Positions 10,843 to 22,623 of a stretch of 64,000 nucleotides of DNA are shown in pieces (the stretch's first letter is position 1; the number at the start of each line of letters is the position of its first letter). The DNA comes from Haloprofundus salinisoli (GTDB lineage: Archaea; Halobacteriota; Halobacteria; Halobacteriales; Haloferacaceae): the NCBI RefSeq assembly GCF_020097815.1, contig NZ_CP083663.1:1-64000 (forward strand). Reading direction: 5' to 3'. The notes under the pieces are model-generated. The model had not been told where the DNA came from. It saw nothing but the letters and a program-made list of their open reading frames with translations, and ran no database searches. Position numbers and translations under genes: made by a program.

Positions 10843-12957
10843 TTACTCGCGGTCCGTCTGTCCGGTCTTCGGTGCCGAGCGTCCGGAGAGTCCGAACACC
10901 GAACGAGCCGTCGCGATGGGTTTCGGCCGGCCGACGCTCGACTGGACGACGTACATCGCGATGGCGACGCCGACAGCCGTGAACTGCACGATTCGCGAGG
11001 GGTGAAGCATCGCGAGCACGCCGGTCGTGAAGAACGCGATGCGTGCGCCGAAGGTGATGGGTCGACCGAACGCGAATCGGTAGTTGATACCGTGGATGAT
11101 CGCTACCGCGCCGAGCAGCGCAAGCGCTCCCGACGTGAGCGAGAGCAAGTCGAACTCCGAGGAGACTATCTCGGGATGGTAGACGAAGACGAACGGGAGG
11201 ACGAACAGCGGCGCGGATATCTTGATGGCCTCCACGCAGCTCTTCCAGAAGTCACCGCCGGCGATACCGCAGGCCACCGCGACGCAGGTCGCGATAGGCG
11301 GCGTGAGGCCCGCGAGGATGGCCGCGTAGAAGACGAAGAAGTGACTCGCGAGTTCGGGGAGGAAGAACTGGTTGATGAGCGTCGGCGCGATGAGGAGCGC
11401 GACGATGGTGTAGGACGCCGTCGTCGGCATTCCCAGCCCGAGGACGATACAGATGATCATCGCGAGGATGGCAGCCACGAACAGCACGCCGCCCGAGAGG
11501 TCCATCAGCGTCAGCGAGATGGCCGTTGGGACGCCCGTCGTGGTGAGGATGTCGACGACGCCGTTGATGGCTGCGAGGATGATGGTCACCGGCGCGAGGA
11601 CGATGACACCTTCGCGCGCGCCGTTGAGCGTCTCCCAGGCGACGCGCTTCGTCGCCGCTCCGGCCGTCTCGTCGCTCGTACCGGCAGCGGCCTGGAGGAC
11701 GGGGATGAGTACCCCCGTGATCAGCATCGAGGTGGCCGTCCATAGCGCCGCGGTCATCACCGTCACCTGGACGATGCCCAGGAGGTAGATGAGGACGGCC
11801 AGCGGCACGCCGTACTTCACGACCTCGGTGAGGAACTCGGCGCGCGGCATCGGTTCGGAGATGAGCCGCTCGGGGTCAGTGCTGTCCAGTTGCGGAACGG
11901 AGACGTAGTGGACCGCGACGAAGATGGTCACGCAGAGGATGACCGCCGGAATCAGCCCGGCGACGATGACGTCCGCGTAGGTGATGCCCGTGATGAGCGA
12001 GGCCATGATGAACGCGCCCGCGCCCATCACCGGCGGGAGCACCTGTCCGGCGGTCGAAGCGACCGCTTCGATGGCCCCGGCCGTCTCGGGTTTCATCCCG
12101 TTGCGCTTCATCAGCGGGATGGTGAACGATCCGGTCATGCCGGCGTTTGCGGTCTGGCTGCCGTTGACGGAGCCGATGACCGCACTCGACAGCACCGCCG
12201 TCTGTGCGATGCCGGAGTCGATGTACCGCGCCGAGCGGAACGCCAGGCGCATGATGAGGTCGAACGCGCCATACGCCTTCAAGAAGCCCGCGTACAGGAG
12301 GAACAGCGCGATCCACGCCGCGACGAGGCGGGTGAGGAAGCCGAAGAAGCCGTCGACGCTGATGACGACCGTCCGGAGGATGCGTTCGATTCCGAGTCCG
12401 CCGTGTTCGAGCGGTCCGGGCGCGTACATGCCGAAGTAGCCGTAGGCGAAGCCGGCGAGGACGACGATGAGGAACGTCTGACCGAACGCCCGCCACGTGA
12501 GGTAGATGATGACGATGCTGAACGCGGCCGCCATGACGTACTCGTTGGGCAGGGCGCGTCCGGCACGGTCGATAGCGACCGCCTGATAGTTGACGGCGAG
12601 GTAGCTACAGGTCGCGGCGACGACGACAGCCGAGAGAGACAGCGGTATCGTGTCGACGAGATTCTCGCGGCTGAACGCCCGCTTCAGATCCGCGAAGAGC
12701 TGTCCTCGGCCCCCACCGGCCAGCGACATCAGTTCCGTGAAGATGAACAGTTCGAGGATGCCGCCGAGGAAAACTACGCCGTACTGACCGCGGGGTATCA
12801 TCTGCGTGTAGGCGTACCAGATGACGAGTCCCCAGAAGAAGACCGAAAACAGGATCAGAAGATTCCGCATCGACACCGGTTCGGCGTCGCCCGGCTGCTC
12901 TTGGTCGATCCCCTCTGTGACCTCTGTCTCGCCGTCACCGACGTTCGCTTGGCTCAT
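10843..12957 (-). CDS. TRAP transporter permease, fused 4TM/12TM subunits
   Basis: A 704-aa integral membrane protein that joins the small (DctQ-like) and large (DctM-like) TRAP subunits, the form typical of TAXI-type TRAP systems. The large-subunit hallmarks are visible in GSVNGSQTANAGMTGSFTIP, QVLPPVMGAGAFIMA and GLGMPTTASYTI. It imports a substrate, usually an organic acid, with the ion gradient as energy source. The TAXI binding-protein gene lies 107 bp upstream on the same strand, so the two form a complete transporter. It ends the catabolic block, which fits uptake of the substrate for that pathway. Confidence 0.92.
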   Translation of the reverse strand: MSQANVGDGETEVTEGIDQEQPGDAEPVSMRNLLILFSVFFWGLVIWYAYTQMIPRGQYGVVFLGGILELFIFTELMSLAGGGRGQLFADLKRAFSRENLVDTIPLSLSAVVVAATCSYLAVNYQAVAIDRAGRALPNEYVMAAAFSIVIIYLTWRAFGQTFLIVVLAGFAYGYFGMYAPGPLEHGGLGIERILRTVVISVDGFFGFLTRLVAAWIALFLLYAGFLKAYGAFDLIMRLAFRSARYIDSGIAQTAVLSSAVIGSVNGSQTANAGMTGSFTIPLMKRNGMKPETAGAIEAVASTAGQVLPPVMGAGAFIMASLITGITYADVIVAGLIPAVILCVTIFVAVHYVSVPQLDSTDPERLISEPMPRAEFLTEVVKYGVPLAVLIYLLGIVQVTVMTAALWTATSMLITGVLIPVLQAAAGTSDETAGAATKRVAWETLNGAREGVIVLAPVTIILAAINGVVDILTTTGVPTAISLTLMDLSGGVLFVAAILAMIICIVLGLGMPTTASYTIVALLIAPTLINQFFLPELASHFFVFYAAILAGLTPPIATCVAVACGIAGGDFWKSCVEAIKISAPLFVLPFVFVYHPEIVSSEFDLLSLTSGALALLGAVAIIHGINYRFAFGRPITFGARIAFFTTGVLAMLHPSRIVQFTAVGVAIAMYVVQSSVGRPKPIATARSVFGLSGRSAPKTGQTDRE

Positions 12958-13064
12958 CTGTCCTCACCGCCGGTGTGTTCGCGTCGTCCGATGCACCGCC
13001 GCTGGTCGCCTCGACTGTCTATGTGCATTGTTCGTGAGGTATCCAAAAACGCGCTCTTACAAAG

Positions 13065-14162
13065 CTATTCGTTGGTCTCGCCGCGCGTCCACTCGTCGTT
13101 CCAGACGTCGTTTTCCTCCCAGTAGTCGGCGACGCCGGGGTGGATTTCGAGGTCCGGAATGACCGCCTGCGTCATCGACTCGACGCCGGAGTGGTCGAGC
13201 GCCGTCGGGTCGGCCTGCTGGATGGCCTGCCAGTGTTCGCTGGAGAGGCGGGCGACCTCCTTGGTCGCCTCCGCCGGAACGTCGGGGCCGAACGCCCACT
13301 GGCCGGCGAGCGCCCACGAGGTGACCTGGTCGGTCACTCGCGTCACGTCCTGCTCCCAGCCGTACGGCTCGAACTCGGTGAGGAGCGCGCCGGGGGTGTC
13401 TTCGATGGTCTGTCGGAAGTTGTCGTCGACCTCGATGGCGTAGAGTTCGCCGTTGCTCCGCACGTCGACCTCCTGGACCCAACTCGAGAGCTCCTTCCCG
13501 TTGGCGCCGTAGATACAGAGCGCGTCGGCTCTGCCCTCTTCGACGGCACCGGCGATGTCGCTGGTGTCGAGGTTGAGGATGTCGTTCGGCTCCCAGAGCC
13601 CCGCCTTGCGGATAATCTCCTCGGTCAGCAGGCGCGTCCCGAAGCCGGGTTGGATGGGGTAGATGGTGTAGCCGCCGTCGGCGAGGTCGGCCGTCGACTC
13701 GATGCCCGACCCCTCCATAGCCACCCAGTAGATTTCGAGGCTGGTGAAGATGAACCCCTGCATCGGCATGCTGTCGACGGGGTCTTCGGCGAATGGTCCA
13801 TTGTCGTTCATCGCCTTCGACAGCGAGTTGTTGTCGACGCCGATGCTCGAGAGGTTCCCGCTGTCGAACTCGTAGAGGTTCGCCGTCCACCCGTCGGTCA
13901 CCTGCACGGAGATGTCGAGGATATCGCTGTGCTGACTCGCCGCCCGCGCCAGCGCTTGCCCGGCCTGCTGCGTCGAACTGCCTGAGGACGTTCCGCCGAT
14001 GACGATCTCGTAGTTTCCCCCGTCGCCGCCGCCGCTGCCGTTACCGCCGCCACCGCCGCCACCGCCGCCACCAGAATCCGAACATCCGGCGAGACCGATT
14101 ACGCCGAGGGTCGTCGCTCCCTTCAGTACGTCACGTCTATCGATACGCTGGTCGTCAGTCAT
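13065..14162 (-). CDS. TAXI-family TRAP solute-binding lipoprotein
   Basis: A 365-aa extracytoplasmic binding protein. The N-terminus has a twin-arginine motif (DRRDVLKG), a hydrophobic stretch and a lipobox LAGC, so it is probably exported folded by Tat and lipid-anchored. A poly-Gly linker of about 25 residues follows the Cys, as in many haloarchaeal lipoproteins. The mature part begins YEIVIGGTSSGSSTQQAGQA, the TAXI signature start. The ATG at 14162 is chosen because it puts RR near residue 10. It supplies the fused permease encoded downstream. The ligand is unknown. Confidence 0.92.
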   Translation of the reverse strand: MTDDQRIDRRDVLKGATTLGVIGLAGCSDSGGGGGGGGGGNGSGGGDGGNYEIVIGGTSSGSSTQQAGQALARAASQHSDILDISVQVTDGWTANLYEFDSGNLSSIGVDNNSLSKAMNDNGPFAEDPVDSMPMQGFIFTSLEIYWVAMEGSGIESTADLADGGYTIYPIQPGFGTRLLTEEIIRKAGLWEPNDILNLDTSDIAGAVEEGRADALCIYGANGKELSSWVQEVDVRSNGELYAIEVDDNFRQTIEDTPGALLTEFEPYGWEQDVTRVTDQVTSWALAGQWAFGPDVPAEATKEVARLSSEHWQAIQQADPTALDHSGVESMTQAVIPDLEIHPGVADYWEENDVWNDEWTRGETNE

Positions 14163-14183
14163 GCGGACGTTAATTGTCTTTCC

Positions 14184-14193
14184 TTTATTTAAC
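14184..14193 (-). promoter_or_regulatory. TATA-like box of the TRAP operon
   Basis: On the minus strand a TTAAATAAAG element sits about 25 bp before the ATG of the TAXI gene, consistent with a separate, nearly leaderless promoter for the transporter genes. Confidence 0.55.
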
Positions 14194-14273
14194 TTTGATG
14201 CCATCGTCATATTCTTCGACGGTTTCACGCCGTCAATGGCACCGATTTCCTCGTTTGCGAGTGAACGAAGGAG

Positions 14274-15719
14274 TCAGTCGAGCCACTCGTTCGCGGCGTC
14301 GGCGTCGAAGGGAACGTGGCCGTCGCGTTCGAACGCCCGGTCGCGGTACGCTCGAAGGCGCTCGCGGAAGTCGGGGTGAGCGACCTGGATGAGCGCGTCC
14401 ATCCGTTCGGCCGGACTCGCGCCGCGGAGGTCCGCAACGCCGTACTCGGTGACGACGACAGAGTGGTCGTGTTCGGTGTGGTCGACGTGCGACACGGTCG
14501 GGACGATTCGGGAGATGTCGCCGCCGGCGGCCGTCGACGGGAGCGCGATGATGCCGAGTCGACAGTTGCGGTTGAAGTCGCCGCCGCCGCCGATGCCGTT
14601 GACGATCCGCGTGCCGCCGATGTGCGTGGCGTTGGCGTTTCCGTAGAGGTCGACGTCCACCGCGCTGTTGACGCCGACGACGCCGAACTGCTCGATGAGC
14701 GCCGGGTTGTTCGAGACGTCCGCCGGACGCAGCACCACGTCGTCGGCGTAGCGGTCGATCTCCTCGAACAGCCGCTCTTGGCCCTCCAGCGACAGCGCGA
14801 GCGACGTCGCGCTCGCCCCCGAGAGCAGCCCCTCGTCGAGCGCGTCAAGGAGGCCGTCCTGGAACACCTCGCCGAAGTAGACGACCTCGCGGTCGCCGAA
14901 GTCGATGCCTGAGAGCTCGCCCATCAGGGCGTTGCCGAGACTCCCGACGCCGAACTGGAGGTGGACGGCCTCCGCGAGCGTCGGGTCGTGCTCCAGTTCC
15001 GCCTCCAGGAACGCGCCGAGTTCGTCGGCGATGGCGAGGTCCGCCTCGGTGGGGTCGCGGAACTCGTAGGGGTCGTCCGCTCGGTCGGTCTCGACGACCG
15101 CGACGAGCTTTTCGGGGTCGAACTCGACGCGCGCCGACCCGACGCGCTCGGTCGGCTCCGACACCGGAATCGGGTCACGGTTCGGCGGGAGGTCTCGCTG
15201 ATAGACGTCGTGGACGCGTTCGAGCGCCCGCGGCTGTGCGCCGTTGACCTCGACTATCAAGCGATCTGCGGCCGCGACGAACGACGGCGTGTGGCCGATG
15301 GAGGTCGACGGAATCAGCCAGTCCTCACCGACGGCGACGGCTTCGATGACGGCCGCGTCGGGGTGGCCGAGGTGGCCGAGGCGGACCTCGTCGCCGAGGC
15401 GGGAGATGTGGCGGTCGTGGAACTCGACGCGCCGCTCGTTGATGGCCTCGCGGGAGGCGCGCCGCGTCTGAAACGGGTAGCGGCGCGCGAGTTTGCCCGC
15501 CTCGATGAGTACGTCGTCGACCTCGCCGCCGACGCCGCCGCCGGAGACGACCGTCAGTGACATCTCGCGGTCGGCCTCGGCCGCCGCGACGAGGACGCGC
15601 TTGGGGTACCCTACGCCGCCGAAGCCGCTGACGAGCACCGTATCGTCGCCGCCGATGTGCTCGGCGGCGGCTTCGGCCGAGACGACCGGGAGGCCGTCGG
15701 CGATGCGGTCACCGGTCAT
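14274..15719 (-). CDS. Succinyl-CoA-type acyl-CoA transferase (acetyl-CoA hydrolase/Cat1 family)
   Basis: A 481-aa CoA-transferase of the family that includes succinyl-CoA:acetate CoA-transferase, Cat1 and RipA-like enzymes. The N-terminal SGFGGVGYPKRVL is the CoA-loop region. YFGEVFQDGLLDAL carries the Glu that forms the glutamyl-CoA thioester. DVDLYGNANATHIGGTRIVN and GIGGGGDFNRN are diagnostic for the family. It would activate a carboxylic acid by moving CoA from succinyl-CoA or acetyl-CoA. It overlaps the upstream MaoC gene by 4 bp, so the two are translationally coupled. The acceptor acid is unknown. Confidence 0.88.
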   Translation of the reverse strand: MTGDRIADGLPVVSAEAAAEHIGGDDTVLVSGFGGVGYPKRVLVAAAEADREMSLTVVSGGGVGGEVDDVLIEAGKLARRYPFQTRRASREAINERRVEFHDRHISRLGDEVRLGHLGHPDAAVIEAVAVGEDWLIPSTSIGHTPSFVAAADRLIVEVNGAQPRALERVHDVYQRDLPPNRDPIPVSEPTERVGSARVEFDPEKLVAVVETDRADDPYEFRDPTEADLAIADELGAFLEAELEHDPTLAEAVHLQFGVGSLGNALMGELSGIDFGDREVVYFGEVFQDGLLDALDEGLLSGASATSLALSLEGQERLFEEIDRYADDVVLRPADVSNNPALIEQFGVVGVNSAVDVDLYGNANATHIGGTRIVNGIGGGGDFNRNCRLGIIALPSTAAGGDISRIVPTVSHVDHTEHDHSVVVTEYGVADLRGASPAERMDALIQVAHPDFRERLRAYRDRAFERDGHVPFDADAANEWLD

Positions 15720-16384
15720 TCGTCGGTCGACCCGGCGGGGCTATCGCCGCGTTCGCCGCTCTCAGGTTGCGTGCCGATTCCTTCGGGCCACCCCGGCGGC
15801 TGCGCCGCGGTCGGCTGGGCGTACTCGCGCTTCAACACCATCGGCGTGCGCTCCATCGACAGCACCTTCGTGCCGTCCTGATTGTACGCCCGCAGTTCCG
15901 TGGTGACGATGCCGACGTGGTCCCGGGAGGAGCTCTCGCGCTTCTCCAGCACCTCGCTCTCGGCGAAGATAGTGTCGCCGTGGTAGACGGGCGCGTGGTG
16001 GCGGATTCGGTCGTAGCCGAGGTTCGCGGTGGCGTTGACGGAGACGTCGATGACGCTCATCCCGACGGCGAGCGCGATGACGAACGTCCCGTCGACGAGG
16101 CGCTCACCGAACTCTGTCTCGGCGGCGTACGCCTCGTTGAAGTGCATCGGATTGAGATTCATCGTGACGTTCGTCATCCAGACGTTGTCCGTCTCGGTGA
16201 CGGTGCGGCCGAACGGGTGTTTGTACACGTCGCCGATGGTGAAATCTTCGTAGTAGCGCCCCTGCCAACCCTCGACGAGGCGCGTGTCGGTCGATGCGTT
16301 CTCGTCGGTTCCGCCGTCGGTTGCCGGCGTGAGGTCGGTCGTCGGCGTCGGTTCCTGCGTCGAATCGGTGAGTTCGTCTGTCAT
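15716..16384 (-). CDS. MaoC-family hydratase, itaconyl/mesaconyl-CoA hydratase-like
   Basis: A 222-aa single hot-dog MaoC protein with disordered N- and C-terminal tails. The core begins GWQGRYYEDFTIGDVYKHPF and continues with TETDNVWMTNVTMNLNPMHF, which contains the hydratase Asp/Asn and His. AVYHGDT-type APVYHGDTIFAESEV and ESSSRDHVGIVTTEL follow. This order resembles itaconyl-CoA hydratase (RipB/Ich) and mesaconyl-CoA hydratase more than FAS-type dehydratases. It lies 30 bp downstream of the acyl-CoA dehydrogenase gene and overlaps the CoA-transferase gene by 4 bp. The assignment to a C5 branched substrate is my inference. Confidence 0.8.
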   Translation of the reverse strand: MTDELTDSTQEPTPTTDLTPATDGGTDENASTDTRLVEGWQGRYYEDFTIGDVYKHPFGRTVTETDNVWMTNVTMNLNPMHFNEAYAAETEFGERLVDGTFVIALAVGMSVIDVSVNATANLGYDRIRHHAPVYHGDTIFAESEVLEKRESSSRDHVGIVTTELRAYNQDGTKVLSMERTPMVLKREYAQPTAAQPPGWPEGIGTQPESGERGDSPAGSTDE

Positions 16385-16414
16385 TGGTTGGTTTCGGTGT
16401 GTTCGCTGTCGCTC

Positions 16415-17620
16415 TCAGTACGACCGGGGGAGCTCGAGCACGTTCTCCCCGAGATAGTTCAGCGCGAGCTCCTGCGTGATGGGGACGAGGCGGGTGAGCC
16501 GCGCCTCCCGGAAGTAGCGCTCGACATCGTACTCGCGGGCGACGCCGCGGCCCCCGTGGGCCTGGACGGCGGCGTCGGCGGCGTCGAACGCCGCCTCCGC
16601 GGCGAGATACTTCGCCGTGTTCGCCCACGCGCCGACGGCTTTGCGGTCCTCGTCGCCGGTGTGCGTCGCCGCGTCGAAAGTGAACTGCTTTGCGGCCTGC
16701 ACGCGGGCGAAGGCGGCCGCCAGCGGGTGTTGGACGCCCTGGTTCTGCCCGACGGGGCGGCCGAACACCTCGCGGTCGCCGGCGTAGGCGACGCCCTTCT
16801 CGAGGGCGAGTTCGCCGAGGCCCACCGCCTCCGCAGCGATGACGAGTCGTTCCTCGTTGAGTCCGTCGAGGACGTGGTAGAAACCGCGGCCCTCCTCGCC
16901 GATGAGGTTCTCGGCCGGGATGCGGAGGTCGTCGTAGGTGACGCGGAAGGAGCTGACGACGCCGCTGACGGTCTTCTCTATCTCCTCTAAGAGGATGCTC
17001 CCCTCTTCGACGCCGCGTTCGATGTCGACGAGAAACAGCGAGACGCCCTGCGTCTTCTTCTCGACTTCGTCGCGCGGCGTCGTGCGGGCGGCGAGCACGA
17101 GATAGTCACTCACGTCGATGCGGGAGGTCCAGAGCTTCTCGCCGTTGACGACGTACTCGTCTCGGTCGCGGACGGCCTCGGTCGTCATCGCCGTCGAGTC
17201 CGACCCCGCCTCCGGTTCGGTGAGGCTGAAACACTGGATCCACGCGTCGCCGTCGGCGACGCGGGGCAGAAGCTCCTCCTTGAGGTCGTCGCTGCCGTAC
17301 TTGACGAGCGGCGCGGAGTTGTAGATGGCGGCGTGGACGCTCTGCGCGCCGCTGAAGCCCGCGCCGCTGGCGGCTATCTCGTGCATCATCGCCACGGCCT
17401 CCTCGGTTCCGTACCCCTTTCCGCCGTACGCCTCGGGGAGCAGGACGCCGAGCCAACCCTCGGCGGCGAGCGCGTCGACGAACTCGTAGGGATACTCCCC
17501 CTCCGCGTCGTATTCGCGCCAGTAAGCGTCGTCGAACCGGCTACAGACCTCCCGGACCTCGTCGCGAACGGCCCGCTGGGTCGGCGTGAGCGCCAGTTCG
17601 TTCGCGAAATAATTCACCAT
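16415..17620 (-). CDS. Acyl-CoA dehydrogenase family protein lacking the usual catalytic Glu
   Basis: A 401-aa flavoprotein with the full acyl-CoA dehydrogenase order: an N-terminal helical domain starting near LTPTQRAVRDEVREVC, a mid-domain with FSLTEPEAGSDSTAM and WTSRIDVSDYLVLAAR, and a C-terminal helical bundle with QAHGGRGVAREYDVERYFRE. Where the common enzymes read IYEGTSE, this one reads LVPITQE, so the standard base is replaced by Pro. It may use another Glu, as isovaleryl-CoA dehydrogenase does, or have another reaction. The ATG at 17620 follows a TATA-like box. It leads a three-gene unit with the MaoC and CoA-transferase genes. Confidence 0.85.
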   Translation of the reverse strand: MVNYFANELALTPTQRAVRDEVREVCSRFDDAYWREYDAEGEYPYEFVDALAAEGWLGVLLPEAYGGKGYGTEEAVAMMHEIAASGAGFSGAQSVHAAIYNSAPLVKYGSDDLKEELLPRVADGDAWIQCFSLTEPEAGSDSTAMTTEAVRDRDEYVVNGEKLWTSRIDVSDYLVLAARTTPRDEVEKKTQGVSLFLVDIERGVEEGSILLEEIEKTVSGVVSSFRVTYDDLRIPAENLIGEEGRGFYHVLDGLNEERLVIAAEAVGLGELALEKGVAYAGDREVFGRPVGQNQGVQHPLAAAFARVQAAKQFTFDAATHTGDEDRKAVGAWANTAKYLAAEAAFDAADAAVQAHGGRGVAREYDVERYFREARLTRLVPITQELALNYLGENVLELPRSY

Positions 17621-17644
17621 CGTTCGTGTGTGTAACTGAACCGG

Positions 17645-17654
17645 GTATAAATAT
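17645..17654 (-). promoter_or_regulatory. TATA-like box of the acyl-CoA dehydrogenase operon
   Basis: An ATATTTATAC element on the minus strand lies about 28 bp before the ATG at 17620. It indicates that the dehydrogenase-MaoC-CoA-transferase genes have their own promoter, apart from the operon that starts at the stress-protein gene. Confidence 0.6.
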
Positions 17655-17745
17655 GCGGATGGGATACATTCTCTGCCACTTCTCAACTCCCGGAGACGAC
17701 GGCGTCTCCGCACCGTCGCCGAACGCGGCCGAGAGAACCCGCCGC

Positions 17746-19254
17746 TTACCCGCTCAGCGCGCGCAGCGCCTCGTACGGCGCGTCGCCGTCCCGTCCTAAC
17801 CTGCGGCACGCGTCGAGCGCCGCCGCCGCGACGTCGGGGTCGCAGCCGGCCGCGGCCGCGAGCTCTTCGAACTTCCGCGCGACGGCCTCCTCGGAGAGCG
17901 GGCGCTCGGGTTCGCCACGGGCGTGTTCGACGAAGCGCTCGTGCGTTCCCGACTCGGTTTCCACTTCGACGCCCGCGGCCCACGTCTTGGGGAACCGCGA
18001 CCGCGTGCGGTCGGTCGTCGTCACCGCCGTCGCGTCCATCAGCCGGCGGAGCTCGCGGTCGTCGAGTCGGCCCTGCGCGTCCAGAAACGCCGATAGCCCC
18101 GCGTCCGCCTCCGAGAGCGCGAGTGCGGCGGCGAACGGCATACTGAACTGGCAGTCGACGAAGTTCGACGGCCGCCGCTTGGCGTCGATGGGGTCGCCGG
18201 TGAGCGTCACGCCCGACGCCGGGAGGTCGACGCGCACGGCGGTCACGTCCGCGGGGTCGACCTCATCCGTCAGCTCCAACAGGCCGTCGATCGCGGCGTG
18301 CGTGTACCGACAGCAGGGGTACGGCTTCAGCGCCGTCTCGAGGAGCGCGCGGCCCGGGTCGACGTCGACGAGATGTTCCGATTCCGGGTTCTCGGTGTAC
18401 CCGGCGAAGAAACCGTGGTCGCCCTCGATGGGCGCGGCCGCGCCGCGGAATCCGCTCGCGGCGAGCTCGGCGGCGACGACGGCCCGCGAGGCGGCGAGGC
18501 CGGGGTGAAGCCGCTTGTTCCACGCGCCGTTTGCGAGGAACTGCAGCGACCCGGCGGTCTGACTCCCGTTGACGCCGAACGCCGCCGCGAGTTCGTCACG
18601 CGAGAGGCCGCGGAGCCGACCCGCCGCGGCCGTCGCGCCGAACGTCCCGCAGGTCGCCGTGATGTGGAAACCGCGTCCGTAGTGGGCGTCGGGGTTGACG
18701 GCCCGCCCGAGCGCGCAGGCGACGTCGTAGCCGACGACGATGGCCGTCGCCAGTTCCGCTCCGCCCGCACCCTCGGCCTCCCCGACGGCTAACGCGGCCG
18801 CGATGACCGGCGCGCCGGGATGGAGCGAGGACGCCCGGTGGGTGTCGTCGAAGTCGAGGCTGTGGGCGTACGTTCCGTTGGCGAGCGCGGCGCGGTCGGG
18901 GGCGATGCGCGCTCCCGACGAGAAGTCGGTCGAGAGACCGCCGCCGTCGGGAGCTTCGCCGCCGGTTCCGGCGGTTCCAGCGGTTCCGGCGGTTCCAGCG
19001 GTTCCGGCGGTTCCGTCGCCTTCGACCGCTCGCCGACCACCGGCGAGCGCCTCGACGGCCGCCGAGACGCTCTCCGAGGACTCCGCCAGCGCCGCACCGC
19101 CGACGACGAGGCCCGTCCAGTCGGCGAGATGCTTCCCGACGGCCGCCCGAACCTCGTTGGAGAGGTCGCCGAACTCCGTGGTCAGTGCGTGCTCCGCGAG
19201 CCGTTCGGCGGCGGTTCCGGCGGTCTCTCCACCCTCGGCTCCGTCGGCGCTCAC
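17746..19254 (-). CDS. MmgE/PrpD-family protein
   Basis: A 502-aa member of the family that holds 2-methylcitrate dehydratase and cis-aconitate decarboxylase. Family segments include AHSLDFDDTHRASSLHPGAP, with its conserved Asp and His, FHITATCGTFGATAAAGRL and LKPYPCCRYTHAAID. A Gly-Thr-Ala repeat of about 18 residues interrupts the N-terminal part, encoded by a tandem 9-bp DNA repeat. The GTG at 19254 forms a GTGA overlap with the SDR stop codon and is preferred to a GTG seven codons upstream. Members isomerise, dehydrate or decarboxylate tricarboxylic acids; which applies here is not known. Confidence 0.85.
   Translation of the reverse strand: MSADGAEGGETAGTAAERLAEHALTTEFGDLSNEVRAAVGKHLADWTGLVVGGAALAESSESVSAAVEALAGGRRAVEGDGTAGTAGTAGTAGTAGTGGEAPDGGGLSTDFSSGARIAPDRAALANGTYAHSLDFDDTHRASSLHPGAPVIAAALAVGEAEGAGGAELATAIVVGYDVACALGRAVNPDAHYGRGFHITATCGTFGATAAAGRLRGLSRDELAAAFGVNGSQTAGSLQFLANGAWNKRLHPGLAASRAVVAAELAASGFRGAAAPIEGDHGFFAGYTENPESEHLVDVDPGRALLETALKPYPCCRYTHAAIDGLLELTDEVDPADVTAVRVDLPASGVTLTGDPIDAKRRPSNFVDCQFSMPFAAALALSEADAGLSAFLDAQGRLDDRELRRLMDATAVTTTDRTRSRFPKTWAAGVEVETESGTHERFVEHARGEPERPLSEEAVARKFEELAAAAGCDPDVAAAALDACRRLGRDGDAPYEALRALSG
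18964..19017. repeat. Tandem 9-bp repeat, six units
   Basis: Six consecutive units of GGTTCCRGC (the last is GGTTCCGTC), with GGC and AGC units alternating to give an 18-bp higher-order period. They lie in frame in the MmgE/PrpD gene and encode a (Gly-Thr-Ala)n run. Unit gain or loss would keep the frame. Confidence 0.85.
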
Positions 19255-20060
19255 GGCGACATCCCCCCGAGCCACCCGCCGTCGAGCGCGAGCGTCTCAC
19301 CCGTGATATAACCGGCGGCGGGCGACGCGAGGAAGGCGACGGCCCGCCCGAAAGACGGGGGGTCGCCGAGTTCCCCGACCGGGAGTTCGGCCGCACGGCG
19401 CTCGCGGGCCGCCGCGACCGAGATGTTCTCCCTTTCGGCGAGCAGACGAATCTTCTCCTCCAGTCTATCGGTGACGATGCCGCGGGGACAGACGCAGTTC
19501 ACGCGGACGCCCTCGGGTCCATACTCGTCCGCGAGGCTCTTCGAGAGCGCGTAGATACCCGGTCGGAACGCCGCCTGTAAGACGTCGCCCGGGAGCGGTT
19601 CGGCGGCGGTCGCGGAGACGACGTTGACGACCGACCCGCCGTCGCCCTCGACCAGATGGGGGAGCGCGGCGCGGAGCGCGACGACGGTGCTCCGGAGGAC
19701 GCGCTCGTAGGTGCGGTCGAGCGTCTCCACGTCGGTCTCCTCGATGGACTGGACGGGCGGGCCGCCGTGGTTCGTCACGAGCACGTCGAGGCCGCCGAAC
19801 GCGTCGACGGCGGCGTCGACCGTCTCCTCGATGGCCGCCGGGTCCGCGAGGTCGCAGGTGAGAGTTTCTACCGCCCCGGCGTCGCCGCCGGCCGCATCGA
19901 CGAGATGGTCGCGGGCGTCGGCGAGATTGTCCGGGTCGCGTGAGGCGACCGCGACCCGCGCCCCCTCCCGGACGAGCTCCGTGGCTGCGGCGCGTCCGAG
20001 CCCCTTGCTCGCGGCGAACAGCAGCGCGCGTCGGCCATCGAGTTCGAGGTCCACGGTCAC
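19251..20060 (-). CDS. SDR-family oxidoreductase without the standard YxxxK
   Basis: A 269-aa short-chain dehydrogenase. The NAD(P)-binding turn is FAASKGLGRA, and NHGG stands for the usual NNAG motif. The Ser of the catalytic set is in VVNVVSATA, but where YxxxK is expected the sequence runs VLQAAFRPGIYALSKSL, so the standard Tyr and Lys are shifted or lost. The C-terminal VNCVCPRGIVTDRL and GETLALDGGW are typical of the 3-oxoacyl-ACP reductase-like group, in which such Tyr-less variants exist. It overlaps the stress-protein gene by 4 bp and the MmgE/PrpD gene by 4 bp. Confidence 0.87.
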   Translation of the reverse strand: MTVDLELDGRRALLFAASKGLGRAAATELVREGARVAVASRDPDNLADARDHLVDAAGGDAGAVETLTCDLADPAAIEETVDAAVDAFGGLDVLVTNHGGPPVQSIEETDVETLDRTYERVLRSTVVALRAALPHLVEGDGGSVVNVVSATAAEPLPGDVLQAAFRPGIYALSKSLADEYGPEGVRVNCVCPRGIVTDRLEEKIRLLAERENISVAAARERRAAELPVGELGDPPSFGRAVAFLASPAAGYITGETLALDGGWLGGMSP

Positions 20061-20491
20061 TTCGCGACGAAGACCGGTCGGTCCCCGTCGAGGATGACGC
20101 CCTGGGTGACGCTGCCGAACACCGCCTTGCCGACCGGGCTCCGCGTCCGAGCAGCGACGAGTATCGCGTCCGCGTCGAGTTCGGCGGCGGCGTCGAGAAT
20201 CGACGGGACGGGGTCGCCCCGCGCCGTCGCCGAGTCGGTCGGGACATCGAGCGCTTCGAGTTCGGAGACGGCGCGGCCGACCGTCTCGGGGACGCCCTGC
20301 AGTGACTCGATATCCTCGTTGATGGCGTCGATAATCGAGCGACCGGCCTCGTCCGCCGGAACATCTATCTCCTCGTGGACGTACAGCACCGTCACCGCGA
20401 GTTCGTCGCGTCCGGGGAGGTCTCCGAGCGTCCGCAGCTGTGCGTCGAGTCGGCCGTCGTCGCCGTCGACCGCCATGAGAACGCGGTACAT
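20057..20491 (-). CDS. UspA-type universal stress protein
   Basis: A 144-aa single UspA domain. It starts YRVLMAVDGDD, the first beta strand with the ATP-site Asp. ADAILVAARTRSPVGKAVFG near the C-terminus is the Gly-rich nucleotide-binding loop of the ATP-binding type, followed by VTQGVILDGDRPVFVAK. It is the first gene of a tightly overlapping unit with the SDR and MmgE/PrpD genes. A perfect palindrome lies between its start codon and its TATA-like box. Co-transcription with catabolic genes suggests a stress- or energy-linked role, but the target is unknown. Confidence 0.9.
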   Translation of the reverse strand: MYRVLMAVDGDDGRLDAQLRTLGDLPGRDELAVTVLYVHEEIDVPADEAGRSIIDAINEDIESLQGVPETVGRAVSELEALDVPTDSATARGDPVPSILDAAAELDADAILVAARTRSPVGKAVFGSVTQGVILDGDRPVFVAK

Positions 20492-20588: not shown

Positions 20589-20966
20589 GTGTCGAACGAC
20601 GTTATTCACACGGCGCTTTGGGTCTCCGACATCGACGAGACGCTCGATTTTTACGTCGACGGCCTCGGTCTCGAACGCAACTGGGAGTTCACGAGCAACG
20701 GCGTTCGGAACGTCTACGTCGGCGGCGAGCACGGCGAGTTCCAGTTCAAGTACGACCCCGAGGGCGACGGCCAGACCGGCCCCGGTGGCGGCTTCGACCA
20801 CCTCGCCGTCGGCGTCGACAGCACCGACGAGACGTTCGAGCGCCTCGTCGACCACAGCGACCCGCCGGTCGTGACCGACCCGACGACGATGACCGACATC
20901 GACCGCCGCGTCGCCTTCGTCGAAGACCCCGACGGCTACGTCGTCGAACTCGTCGAGCGGGTCTGA
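20589..20966 (+). CDS. VOC-family protein (glyoxalase-like)
   Basis: A 125-aa two-module VOC protein. The first module begins DVIHTALWVSDIDETLDFY, with a metal His and the following helix, and includes VYVGGEHGEFQFKYD. The second has GGFDHLAVGVDSTDETFERL and ends FVEDPDGYVVELVERV, with the last metal Glu. It is close to lactoylglutathione lyase in form, though the substrate in haloarchaea, which lack glutathione, is uncertain. The start is a GTG at 20589. It is divergent from the stress-protein operon and converges on the tautomerase gene. Confidence 0.87.
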   Translation: MSNDVIHTALWVSDIDETLDFYVDGLGLERNWEFTSNGVRNVYVGGEHGEFQFKYDPEGDGQTGPGGGFDHLAVGVDSTDETFERLVDHSDPPVVTDPTTMTDIDRRVAFVEDPDGYVVELVERV

Positions 20967-20991: not shown

Positions 20992-21375
20992 TTACCGTTC
21001 TTCTTCGGGCGGCCACTCGCCGCCGACGCGGTCGGCACCCATCAGGTCGTGCCCCTCGTGTTCGGTGAAGGCGACCTTCACGTTCGGGCGCGGAACGTCC
21101 CACGCGACTTCGAGCCAGTTGACGACCGCGAGCGCGAACGTCCGGCGGCGCTTGAACGACCGTCCGCGTCGGATATCCGCGTTTAACGTCGCTATCGGTC
21201 CGTCGACCGCGCGGCCGAGCGACATCGCCGTCGGCGGGTGCTCTCTGACGACGACGGCGACGTGGCCGGCGGTCGTGGCCATTTCTTCCGTGTACAGTTC
21301 CGTCAGCGACGCCGTGCAGGCGCGCCGCTCGTCGGCAGTCGGTTCGTAGGTGGTGTCGAGTGCGAGAGTCGGCGT
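20992..21375 (-). CDS. Pro-1 tautomerase-like protein, apparently with an ACG start codon
   Basis: The frame upstream of the first ATG (21282) stays clearly homologous to 4-oxalocrotonate tautomerase-like proteins: PTLALDTTYEPTADERRACT begins at Pro codon 21370-21372, and later segments are GHVAVVVREH and KVAFTEHEGHDL. The family uses the N-terminal Pro exposed after Met removal as base. The codon before this Pro is ACG at 21373-21375, not ATG, and no ATG, GTG or TTG lies between it and the MFS stop codon. Either ACG initiates, or the true start is lost and a shortened product starts at 21282. It follows the MFS gene by 57 bp. Confidence 0.75.
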   Translation of the reverse strand, partial: TPTLALDTTYEPTADERRACTASLTELYTEEMATTAGHVAVVVREHPPTAMSLGRAVDGPIATLNADIRRGRSFKRRRTFALAVVNWLEVAWDVPRPNVKVAFTEHEGHDLMGADRVGGEWPPEEER

Positions 21376-21432: not shown

Positions 21433-22623
21433 TCAATCGGCGGCGGCGACGACGTCCGCCGGCGGTTCGGCCCGGATGACCTGCGCGACGAACACGGTCG
21501 CCACGAGTGCGAGCGCCGCGAGCATGAGCCAGCTCACCCGGTAGCCGAACGTATCGGCGAGATAGCCGAACACCGGCGGCGCGACGAGCGCACCCGAGGT
21601 GAGCGCCAACTGGCCGCCGCCGGTCGCGCCGCCCATCTCCTCGGCGGAGACGACCGTCGCCATACAGGAGTAGTAGACGCCGGTGAAGCCGAGCACGAAG
21701 AAACCGAGGACGACGAACGCCACCGCCGCAGCGGCCGTCGTGTCGACGAAGGCGACGACGCAGAACAGTGCGGCGCTCGCCACCGTCTGGACGAGCAGGA
21801 TCTTGGCGATGCGTCGCCGGGGGTCGCCCGAGAGCGCGTCGCTCAGCCACCCGGTGACGACCCGTCCGGCGCTGCCCGAGACCTGTAACGCCGCGAGAAC
21901 GAGACCGCCGACGGCGACGGACGCCCCGATGGACTCCTCGACGTAGAGAATCGTGTACCCGGTCGTCGTGAACAGCCCCGCGCCGAGAAACGCACCCGCG
22001 ATAGTGAGCGAGCGGTACGGTCGGTTGCGGAGCAGCCGCCGGAAACTCGGGAACTCGGCGTCGCCGCCGGTGTCGGCACCGCGGTAGGCGACCCAGAAGA
22101 ACGCGGCGACGACGAGCCCGCTCGTCGCGGCGACGTAGAAGCCGGCCTCCCAGAAGAGCACGCCCGCGATACCCGTGACGAGCAGGGCGCTGGCCCCGCT
22201 GCCGGCCGTCACGCCGACCTGCTTGACGCCGACGGCGAGGTTCTGTCGTCCGGTCGGGACGCTGTCGAATATCGCCTTGTTCGTCCCCGGCATCGCCGTC
22301 CCGTACAGCGAGCCGAGCAGGAACGCACCGACGAGCAGCGTCGCGTACGACCACGCGCCGGCGACGAGCACCGCCCCCACCGAGAGGCCGAGGAGGCCGA
22401 CGGTGAGCGTCCGGCGTTCGCCGAAGCGGTCGGTGAGCGCGCCCAGCGGGAGCAGAAACACCGCGTAGCCGAGCGTCAGCGACGTCACGACGAGGCCGAC
22501 GGCCGTCCCCGAGAGTCCGAACTGGTCGCGGAAGAACGGCGTCGCCGCGAAGACGGCGTAGTAACAGACGCTCGCGGCGAGTTGCCAGACGAAGATGAGC
22601 GAGACGACGCGGCGGACGTTCAT
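21433..22623 (-). CDS. MFS transporter
   Basis: A 396-aa major facilitator protein with 12 predicted helices. The loop between helices 2 and 3, PLGALTDRFGERRTL, carries the A-motif, and a related VTGWLSDALSGDPRRRI lies at the matching point of the second half. The form is that of organic-anion or drug transporters; the substrate is not evident. It lies 103 bp downstream of the AIR-synthase-family gene and 57 bp upstream of the tautomerase gene, so it may move a compound that the tautomerase handles. Confidence 0.87.
   Translation of the reverse strand: MNVRRVVSLIFVWQLAASVCYYAVFAATPFFRDQFGLSGTAVGLVVTSLTLGYAVFLLPLGALTDRFGERRTLTVGLLGLSVGAVLVAGAWSYATLLVGAFLLGSLYGTAMPGTNKAIFDSVPTGRQNLAVGVKQVGVTAGSGASALLVTGIAGVLFWEAGFYVAATSGLVVAAFFWVAYRGADTGGDAEFPSFRRLLRNRPYRSLTIAGAFLGAGLFTTTGYTILYVEESIGASVAVGGLVLAALQVSGSAGRVVTGWLSDALSGDPRRRIAKILLVQTVASAALFCVVAFVDTTAAAAVAFVVLGFFVLGFTGVYYSCMATVVSAEEMGGATGGGQLALTSGALVAPPVFGYLADTFGYRVSWLMLAALALVATVFVAQVIRAEPPADVVAAAD

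Follow-up and report, generated by a model that had tools for sequence, protein, structure and literature searches.

The first 64,000 nucleotides of contig NZ_CP083663.1 of Haloprofundus salinisoli (the window) contain a block of eight genes at positions 10843 to 20491, all on the minus strand of this haloarchaeal chromosome, which very probably encodes a coenzyme A (CoA)-dependent pathway for a branched C5 dicarboxylate. We consider it fairly probable that the block is a catabolic operon whose most likely substrate, and best single guess, is methylsuccinate; mesaconate, and perhaps itaconate, would enter the route partway. This reading draws on the observed gene identities, their conservation, motifs, phylogenetic grouping and gene swapping, and on the linkage of the MaoC and CoA-transferase genes to mesaconate-producing genes. 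No archaeal description of the block was found in the literature (open-licence papers), and it is apparently a variant of a known bacterial pathway that is undescribed in archaea.

Gene organization of the block

The eight genes, which had been proposed in an initial annotation of the same DNA, were confirmed by open reading frames and by Pfam and NCBIfam profile searches, as follows.

10843 to 12957, minus strand: fused TRAP transporter permease of the DctQM type, the membrane part of the uptake system (TRAP_fused, TIGR02123, 383 bits, cut-off 320.65; Pfam DctM)
13065 to 14228, minus strand: TAXI-type solute-binding protein with a lipoprotein-like N terminus (..GLAGCSD..; Pfam NMT1_3 above cut-off; TRAP_TAXI, TIGR02122, 59.7 bits, below the cut-off of 84.35)
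14274 to 15719, minus strand: class I CoA-transferase of the AarC/YgfH succinyl-CoA:acetate type by PDB and NCBIfam scores and its EVFQDG motif, predicted to activate the dicarboxylate
15716 to 16384, minus strand: MaoC-fold hydratase of the RipB/Ich - mesaconyl-CoA hydratase group (Pfam MC_hydratase above cut-off)
16415 to 17620, minus strand: acyl-CoA dehydrogenase (ACD) with a helix G Glu, predicted methylsuccinyl-C4-CoA dehydrogenase (Pfam Acyl-CoA_dh domains above cut-off)
17746 to 19275 (start at 19254 or 19275), minus strand: MmgE/PrpD-family protein of type A, predicted dicarboxylate epimerase (Pfam MmgE_PrpD N- and C-terminal domains, PF03972 and PF19305, above cut-off)
19251 to 20060, minus strand: short-chain dehydrogenase/reductase (SDR), accessory (Pfam adh_short_C2)
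20057 to 20491, minus strand: universal stress protein (Usp), probably TRAP-associated (Pfam Usp)

The Usp/SDR, SDR/MmgE, and MaoC/CoA-transferase gene pairs overlap. The single gap of more than 110 bp in the block is the 125 bp before the ACD gene, which contains a TATA-like stretch; the block may therefore comprise two transcripts.

A hydratase, a dehydrogenase, an MmgE/PrpD protein, and a CoA-transferase are encoded together in the window, as in the five-gene methylsuccinate/itaconate cluster described in bacteria in 2025 (PMC12290011). In Cupriavidus necator and Pseudomonas aeruginosa, methylsuccinyl-C4-CoA dehydrogenase activity has been shown for the ACD and (S)-(R)-methylsuccinate isomerase activity for the MmgE/PrpD protein (Gonner et al., PMC12290011; de Witt et al., PMC9875883). 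In bacteria, a cluster that additionally carries these two genes serves methylsuccinate (PMC12290011), so the ACD and MmgE genes of the window point to methylsuccinate, which fits better than itaconate alone; the reading of the initial annotation, itaconate or C5-dicarboxylate breakdown, holds as regards a C5 dicarboxylate, and shifts as regards the acid. The ict-ich-ccl-mcd-msi cluster (C. necator; P. aeruginosa PA0878-PA0886; PMC12290011, PMC9875883) shares with the block a CoA-transferase, a MaoC-type hydratase, an ACD, an MmgE/PrpD protein, and dedicated uptake, whereas the archaeal block has a class I AarC-type rather than a class III transferase, an MmgE of another subclade with another residue pattern, TAXI-TRAP uptake, and no lyase.

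Linkage to mesaconate-producing genes

The strongest evidence on the acid comes from three genomes of three families (G112, G064, and G019; L078, L079, and L222), in which genes for a window-type MaoC protein and a class I CoA-transferase directly follow those for GlmS, GlmE, and methylaspartate ammonia-lyase. The ammonia-lyase and the mutase of G112 score above the NCBIfam equivalog cut-offs. Since the ammonia-lyase makes mesaconate, mesaconate is the likely substrate of the transferase/hydratase pair, and these operons offer a direct handle on the substrate. G112 carries a second ammonia-lyase elsewhere, beside a canonical mesaconyl-CoA hydratase, and thus the pair probably works outside the ordinary methylaspartate cycle. 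The GlmS-GlmE-ammonia-lyase-MaoC-CoA-transferase operons may provide a CoA-dependent way from glutamate to mesaconate that either accompanies that cycle or replaces it. If this idea, which we hold only tentatively, is true, glutamate would be converted to acetyl-CoA and pyruvate by a CoA-dependent methylaspartate route that is distinct from the methylaspartate cycle, and AarC-type CoA-transferases would have a new substrate class.

It is very unlikely that the MaoC protein itself has a role of the methylaspartate-cycle type, with beta-methylmalyl-CoA as its product, even though it resembles mesaconyl-CoA hydratases and adjoins methylaspartate ammonia-lyase in the three genomes mentioned. The genome of the window (3.42 Mb, 3 contigs) contains no match to methylaspartate ammonia-lyase (TIGR01502) and no canonical mesaconyl-CoA hydratase (NF041625; best score of 90 bits, cut-off 560), and has an isocitrate lyase gene beside a CitE-family gene; it thus falls outside the haloarchaeal methylaspartate cycle. 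The canonical ammonia-lyase and hydratase elsewhere in G112 also speak against such a role. The cycle (Mct/Mch, PMC5592240) and the block have in common a hydratase superfamily and, as predicted for the block, mesaconyl-CoA chemistry in haloarchaea, whereas Mct is a class III enzyme, Mch has 358 residues, and both belong to a glutamate-derived C1-CoA route that is absent from the window's genome.

Conservation and gene swapping in haloarchaea

A MaoC ortholog (approximately 71 to 92% identical) is present in 86 of the 293 sampled genomes of the order (about 29%); four further genomes have a distant copy alone, near 50%. About 60 neighbourhoods were read with a home-made gene finder followed by protein clustering. 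In 55 haloarchaeal MaoC loci, which were picked by MaoC score with the window included and are not a random sample, the following genes lie within approximately 10 kb of the MaoC gene: CoA-transferase in 42, ACD in 37, MmgE/PrpD in 28, and all three in 27. The gene association is not due to chance.

The gene order of the window is repeated exactly in G144, and in G183 save for one gene that was not called there. The block is found on named plasmids of Haloprofundus MHR1, Haladaptatus caseinilyticus, Halobaculum magnesiiphilum, and Natrinema zhouii, and in G084, a genome of the window's genus, the genes are arranged as in the plasmid block of Haloprofundus sp. MHR1. In Natronosalvus halobius the core is present but MmgE is missing, and the G219 block adjoins apparent tripartite tricarboxylate transporter genes (judged by eye). 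Within the genus of the window, type A MmgE (window, G144) is swapped for type B (G084, G204), leaving the ACD, MaoC, CoA-transferase, Usp, SDR, TAXI, and TRAP genes unchanged. Likewise, a class III (CaiB) CoA-transferase replaces the class I enzyme beside ACD-MaoC in L055, L101, and L106. The finding that unrelated parts take one another's place at a single position suggests that the class I and class III transferases do the same job, as do the two MmgE types.

MaoC hydratase and CoA-transferase

The closest solved relatives of the MaoC protein are led by mesaconyl-CoA hydratases (PDB ranking); 8hgn scores 130 bits, whereas PhaJ-type chains score 38 and 26 bits. Five residues before the conserved His, the protein has Asn, as in mesaconyl-CoA hydratase, whereas Asp occupies this position in PaaZ, 4ffu, and 1q6w, from which it also groups away in the tree. 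By this Asn and its closest solved relatives, it belongs to the wider RipB/Ich - mesaconyl-CoA hydratase group, in agreement with the itaconyl/mesaconyl-CoA hydratase character proposed initially, and it is not placed among fatty-acid or polyhydroxyalkanoate (PHA) hydratases. An identity as a PhaJ, fatty-acid, or PHA hydratase was rejected given the low PhaJ scores and the Asn in place of Asp.

The CoA-transferase scores 362 bits with PDB 2g39, 314 bits with AarC (4eu3), and 88 bits with RipA (4n8i), and its EVFQDG motif aligns with the EV(L/I)QD motif of 2g39 and 2nvv. Its score with the YgfH model is 489 bits, below the cut-off of 658.7. The enzyme is classified from its sequence as the AarC/YgfH succinyl-CoA:acetate type; its assignment as a counterpart of RipA was rejected, given the scores of 88 against 362 bits. 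The RipABC itaconate operon of Yersinia pestis resembles the block in its CoA-transferase of the class I superfamily and in that RipB_Ich is the best MaoC model, and differs in that the window's transferase is outside the RipA subgroup, that its MaoC and the distant CitE described below are under the RipB and RipC cut-offs, and that the block has the extra ACD and MmgE genes. A hydantoin racemase encoded beside the CoA-transferase in four loci was considered as an epimerase substitute and dropped; the copy in L050/L103 adjoins apparent hydantoinase genes.

Acyl-CoA dehydrogenase

In all 45 aligned haloarchaeal copies of the ACD, the helix-G motif N(E/D)ER contains Glu (NEER in 42; Asp precedes the Glu in the other three), and the usual C-terminal Glu (GEGT/YEGT) is lost. 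The helix-G Glu is at the position of the catalytic base in isovaleryl-CoA dehydrogenase. Methylsuccinyl-C4-CoA is isovaleryl-CoA with a carboxylate in place of one methyl group. The ACD is therefore predicted to be a good fit for a methylsuccinyl-C4-CoA dehydrogenase.

MmgE/PrpD protein

Both Pfam domains and the fold place the protein in the MmgE/PrpD superfamily. The predicted model (mean predicted local distance difference test [pLDDT] of 89.9) matches iminodisuccinate (IDS) epimerase best among solved structures (PDB accession number 2hp3; Z-score = 47.6, RMSD [root mean square deviation] = 2.1, number of aligned residues = 437), followed by cis-aconitate decarboxylase (Z-score = 46.1, RMSD = 2.2, number of aligned residues = 434), a Z-score gap of only 1.5. 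By sequence, cis-aconitate decarboxylase scores 64 bits, against 115 to 118 bits for nearer matches (IDS epimerase, 115 bits). The protein thus appears nearer to IDS epimerase and to Bacillus subtilis 'IRG1' than to cis-aconitate decarboxylase, and a dicarboxylate epimerase is therefore likelier than a decarboxylase or dehydratase; the family named in the initial annotation stands. IDS epimerase (2HP0/2HP3) has the closest solved fold and the same catalytic residues, with approximately 27% identity and another substrate. We know of no CoA cluster for that enzyme.

Seven active-site residue classes (His, acid, His, Tyr, His, Lys, Lys) are kept, and the second catalytic Tyr of epimerases is retained in all type A and type B proteins, the latter being clearly closest to IDS epimerase (217 against 91 bits). 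IDS epimerase is also the best match of PA0881, according to de Witt et al. (PMC9875883). The pattern of the PA0881-type isomerase is His88, Glu91, His102, Tyr148, His152, Lys202, and Lys266 with its spacing (PMC12290011), and it occurs exactly in proteins of Deinococcus, Rubrobacter, and Paraburkholderia; methylsuccinate isomerases are almost confined to Pseudomonadota (96.2%; Gonner et al., PMC12290011). Type A MmgE was rejected as a sole marker of the pathway, because most Bradyrhizobium-type homologues are without the tested partners nearby. A nine-base tandem repeat (6.3 copies, 18959 to 19015) inside the gene encodes a disordered insert (residues 82 to 106 of the model, pLDDT < 50).

The nearly equal fold similarity to cis-aconitate decarboxylase would suit a C5/C6 route entered by an acid other than methylsuccinate, i.e., another 2-substituted succinate, or itaconate derived from cis-aconitate or tricarballylate, in which the MmgE/PrpD protein is a decarboxylase or dehydratase. 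We regard this as unlikely. It would accord with the substituted 1,4-dicarboxylate substrate that is common to MmgE/PrpD members (PMC12290011) and with the distant MaoC copy at L071:6290-10092, which lies beside a flavin adenine dinucleotide (FAD)-dependent dehydrogenase and a PrpF (aconitate-isomerase-family) protein, a neighbourhood hinting at a tricarboxylate branch. However, itaconate needs no ACD, yet the ACD accompanies most of the MaoC loci, and both the retained second Tyr and the weaker sequence score of cis-aconitate decarboxylase favor an epimerase.

Proposed pathway and points against it

For a methylsuccinate pathway, we infer the substrates, the reactions, the CoA regiochemistry, the lyase assignment, and any role of the SDR as follows. 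The TAXI binding protein and the TRAP permease would import the acid, with modulation by Usp, and the MmgE/PrpD protein would interconvert the stereoisomers of the acid through an enolate, with His and Tyr as the two bases. The AarC-type CoA-transferase would then transfer CoA from succinyl-CoA (or acetyl-CoA) to the C4 carboxyl, and the ACD, acting on a beta-branched thioester like isovaleryl-CoA dehydrogenase, would form mesaconyl-C4-CoA. The MaoC protein would hydrate this to citramalyl-CoA, which a CitE-type lyase encoded elsewhere (candidate at C1:99.9 kb) may cleave to pyruvate and acetyl-CoA.

Several points weigh against this reading. The AarC/YgfH family normally acts on acetate or propionate. 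The MaoC protein, for which RipB_Ich (NF038241) is the best-scoring model, reaches 182 bits and not the equivalog cut-off of 340, and 11 of the 55 MaoC loci are without any partner gene nearby. When compared with the published pattern, not by alignment with PA0881, the MmgE protein has Asp for Glu91 and a Tyr-His spacing of 5 rather than 4; given this different residue pattern, it is not supported as a plain ortholog of the characterized methylsuccinate isomerase. A role for methylsuccinate in haloarchaea has been called doubtful (PMC5592240), and no citramalyl-CoA lyase (CitE/RipC-like) is encoded in the block. A Rhodococcus cluster that includes SDR, thiolase, and hydroxymethylglutaryl-CoA lyase genes also contains a related ACD (50% identity), and therefore the ACD alone is not diagnostic.

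The Rhodococcus cluster, together with the AarC-type transferase, the isovaleryl-CoA dehydrogenase-like Glu of the ACD, and the presence of an SDR, would agree with beta-oxidation of a short-chain or branched monocarboxylate, as for isovalerate-like acids, by a CoA-transferase, an ACD, an (R)-hydratase, and the SDR as 3-hydroxyacyl-CoA dehydrogenase. This is quite improbable: the block has no thiolase, the SDR is an accessory gene (present at 7 of the 42 main-group MaoC loci), neither the MmgE gene nor the ammonia-lyase linkage is accounted for, and the Asn of the MaoC protein is that of mesaconyl-CoA hydratase, not the Asp of PaaZ, 4ffu, and 1q6w.

Candidate lyase

The lack of a citramalyl-CoA lyase had been recorded initially; this is correct for the block, and a genome search located a CitE-like candidate approximately 80 kb away. 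Among the four HpcH/HpaI proteins of the window's genome, the CitE-like protein at C1:99.9 kb scores 195 bits with RipC_Ccl, below the cut-off of 375, and is the candidate lyase for the C5 dicarboxylate pathway. Its gene is flanked by two glutamate dehydrogenase genes near a second MaoC gene (C1:97.9-101 kb), and an ortholog is present in 257 of 293 related genomes. The haloarchaeon G187 lacks this common CitE and has its own CitE beside MmgE-ACD-MaoC-CaiB (L074), whereas in G250, which belongs to the genus of G187, the common CitE is present and the block contains no CitE; this single instance fits the distant CitE serving the block. At L086:7853-12113 (C1 approximately 97.9-102 kb of the window's genome), the second MaoC gene, which is RipB-like, is oriented divergently to the glutamate dehydrogenase-CitE-glutamate dehydrogenase genes, and this MaoC gene and the CitE gene form a putative hydratase/lyase pair.

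Bacterial and archaeal relatives

Relatives of the type A MmgE occur in five-gene sets with CaiB, ACD, MaoC, and CitE in Clostridiales (L148) and SAR116 (L159 and L204), and CitE and MmgE genes are adjacent in Archaeoglobus (L146/L147). The linked genes, the MaoC motif and tree, and these CitE neighbours give good support to the core idea of the initial annotation, here put as a branched C5 dicarboxylate that is taken up, activated with CoA, and hydrated. The C. necator-type cluster was not found at the loci opened for it in Burkholderia (L043), Cupriavidus (L045/L047), and Paraburkholderia (L044). The Thermus thermophilus plasmid pAA2-2c (L111) carries genes for TAXI-TRAP, CitE, a class I fumarase pair, ACD, CaiB CoA-transferase, and MaoC; class I fumarases are able to act as mesaconases (PMC4682846). 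The Thermus MaoC homologue scores 219 bits with RipB_Ich and is 58% identical to that of the window, and this unstudied-looking cluster would be a good thermostable assay system. With its MaoC marker occurring across the order, the conserved block would open to testing an archaeal branch of this catabolism in which the CoA-transferase and the epimerase are of other kinds; if the methylsuccinate reading is true, it would point to branched C5 dicarboxylates being genuine nutrients in saline habitats.

Uptake genes and flanking genes

The permease score and the adjacent Pfam-positive TAXI protein identify a TAXI-TRAP transporter, TAXI being the sole TRAP type found in archaea (PMC11574862). The TAXI protein has no match in PDB and therefore gives no hint of the substrate. 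The Usp gene travels with TAXI/TRAP in the loci read, and TRAP transporters have been noted to be accompanied by Usp proteins (PMC11574862); the protein that was initially listed as a stress protein is thus indeed of the Usp family, and is most likely part of transport rather than of stress. In TeaD-TeaABC of Halomonas, a Usp-regulated TRAP system (noted in PMC11574862), a Usp gene likewise accompanies the transporter, whereas the window's transporter is of the fused TAXI type and the substrate is another one.

Conserved surroundings common to G144 and G183 reach approximately 22.6 kb and comprise three genes.

20589 to 20966, plus strand: small, divergent VOC/glyoxalase-fold protein, possible accessory (Pfam Glyoxalase; conserved in the G144, G183, and G078 loci)
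20992 to 21366, minus strand: tautomerase-like small conserved open reading frame (no Pfam match)
21433 to 22623, minus strand: major facilitator superfamily (MFS) transporter, possible accessory (Pfam MFS_1; in 11 of the 42 loci of the main MaoC group)

The tautomerase-like frame has ACG at the position of the ATG of its G144 ortholog and no in-frame start upstream, and may therefore have become a pseudogene recently or be translated from a non-standard start. The VOC protein (125 residues) adjoins the block in three other genomes; a 127-residue protein of the P. aeruginosa cluster, described as 2-hydroxyparaconate lactonase, is set beside it by description only. A kynureninase-like gene (by eye) lies downstream of the block on the plus strand, at approximately 23.5 to 25.1 kb.

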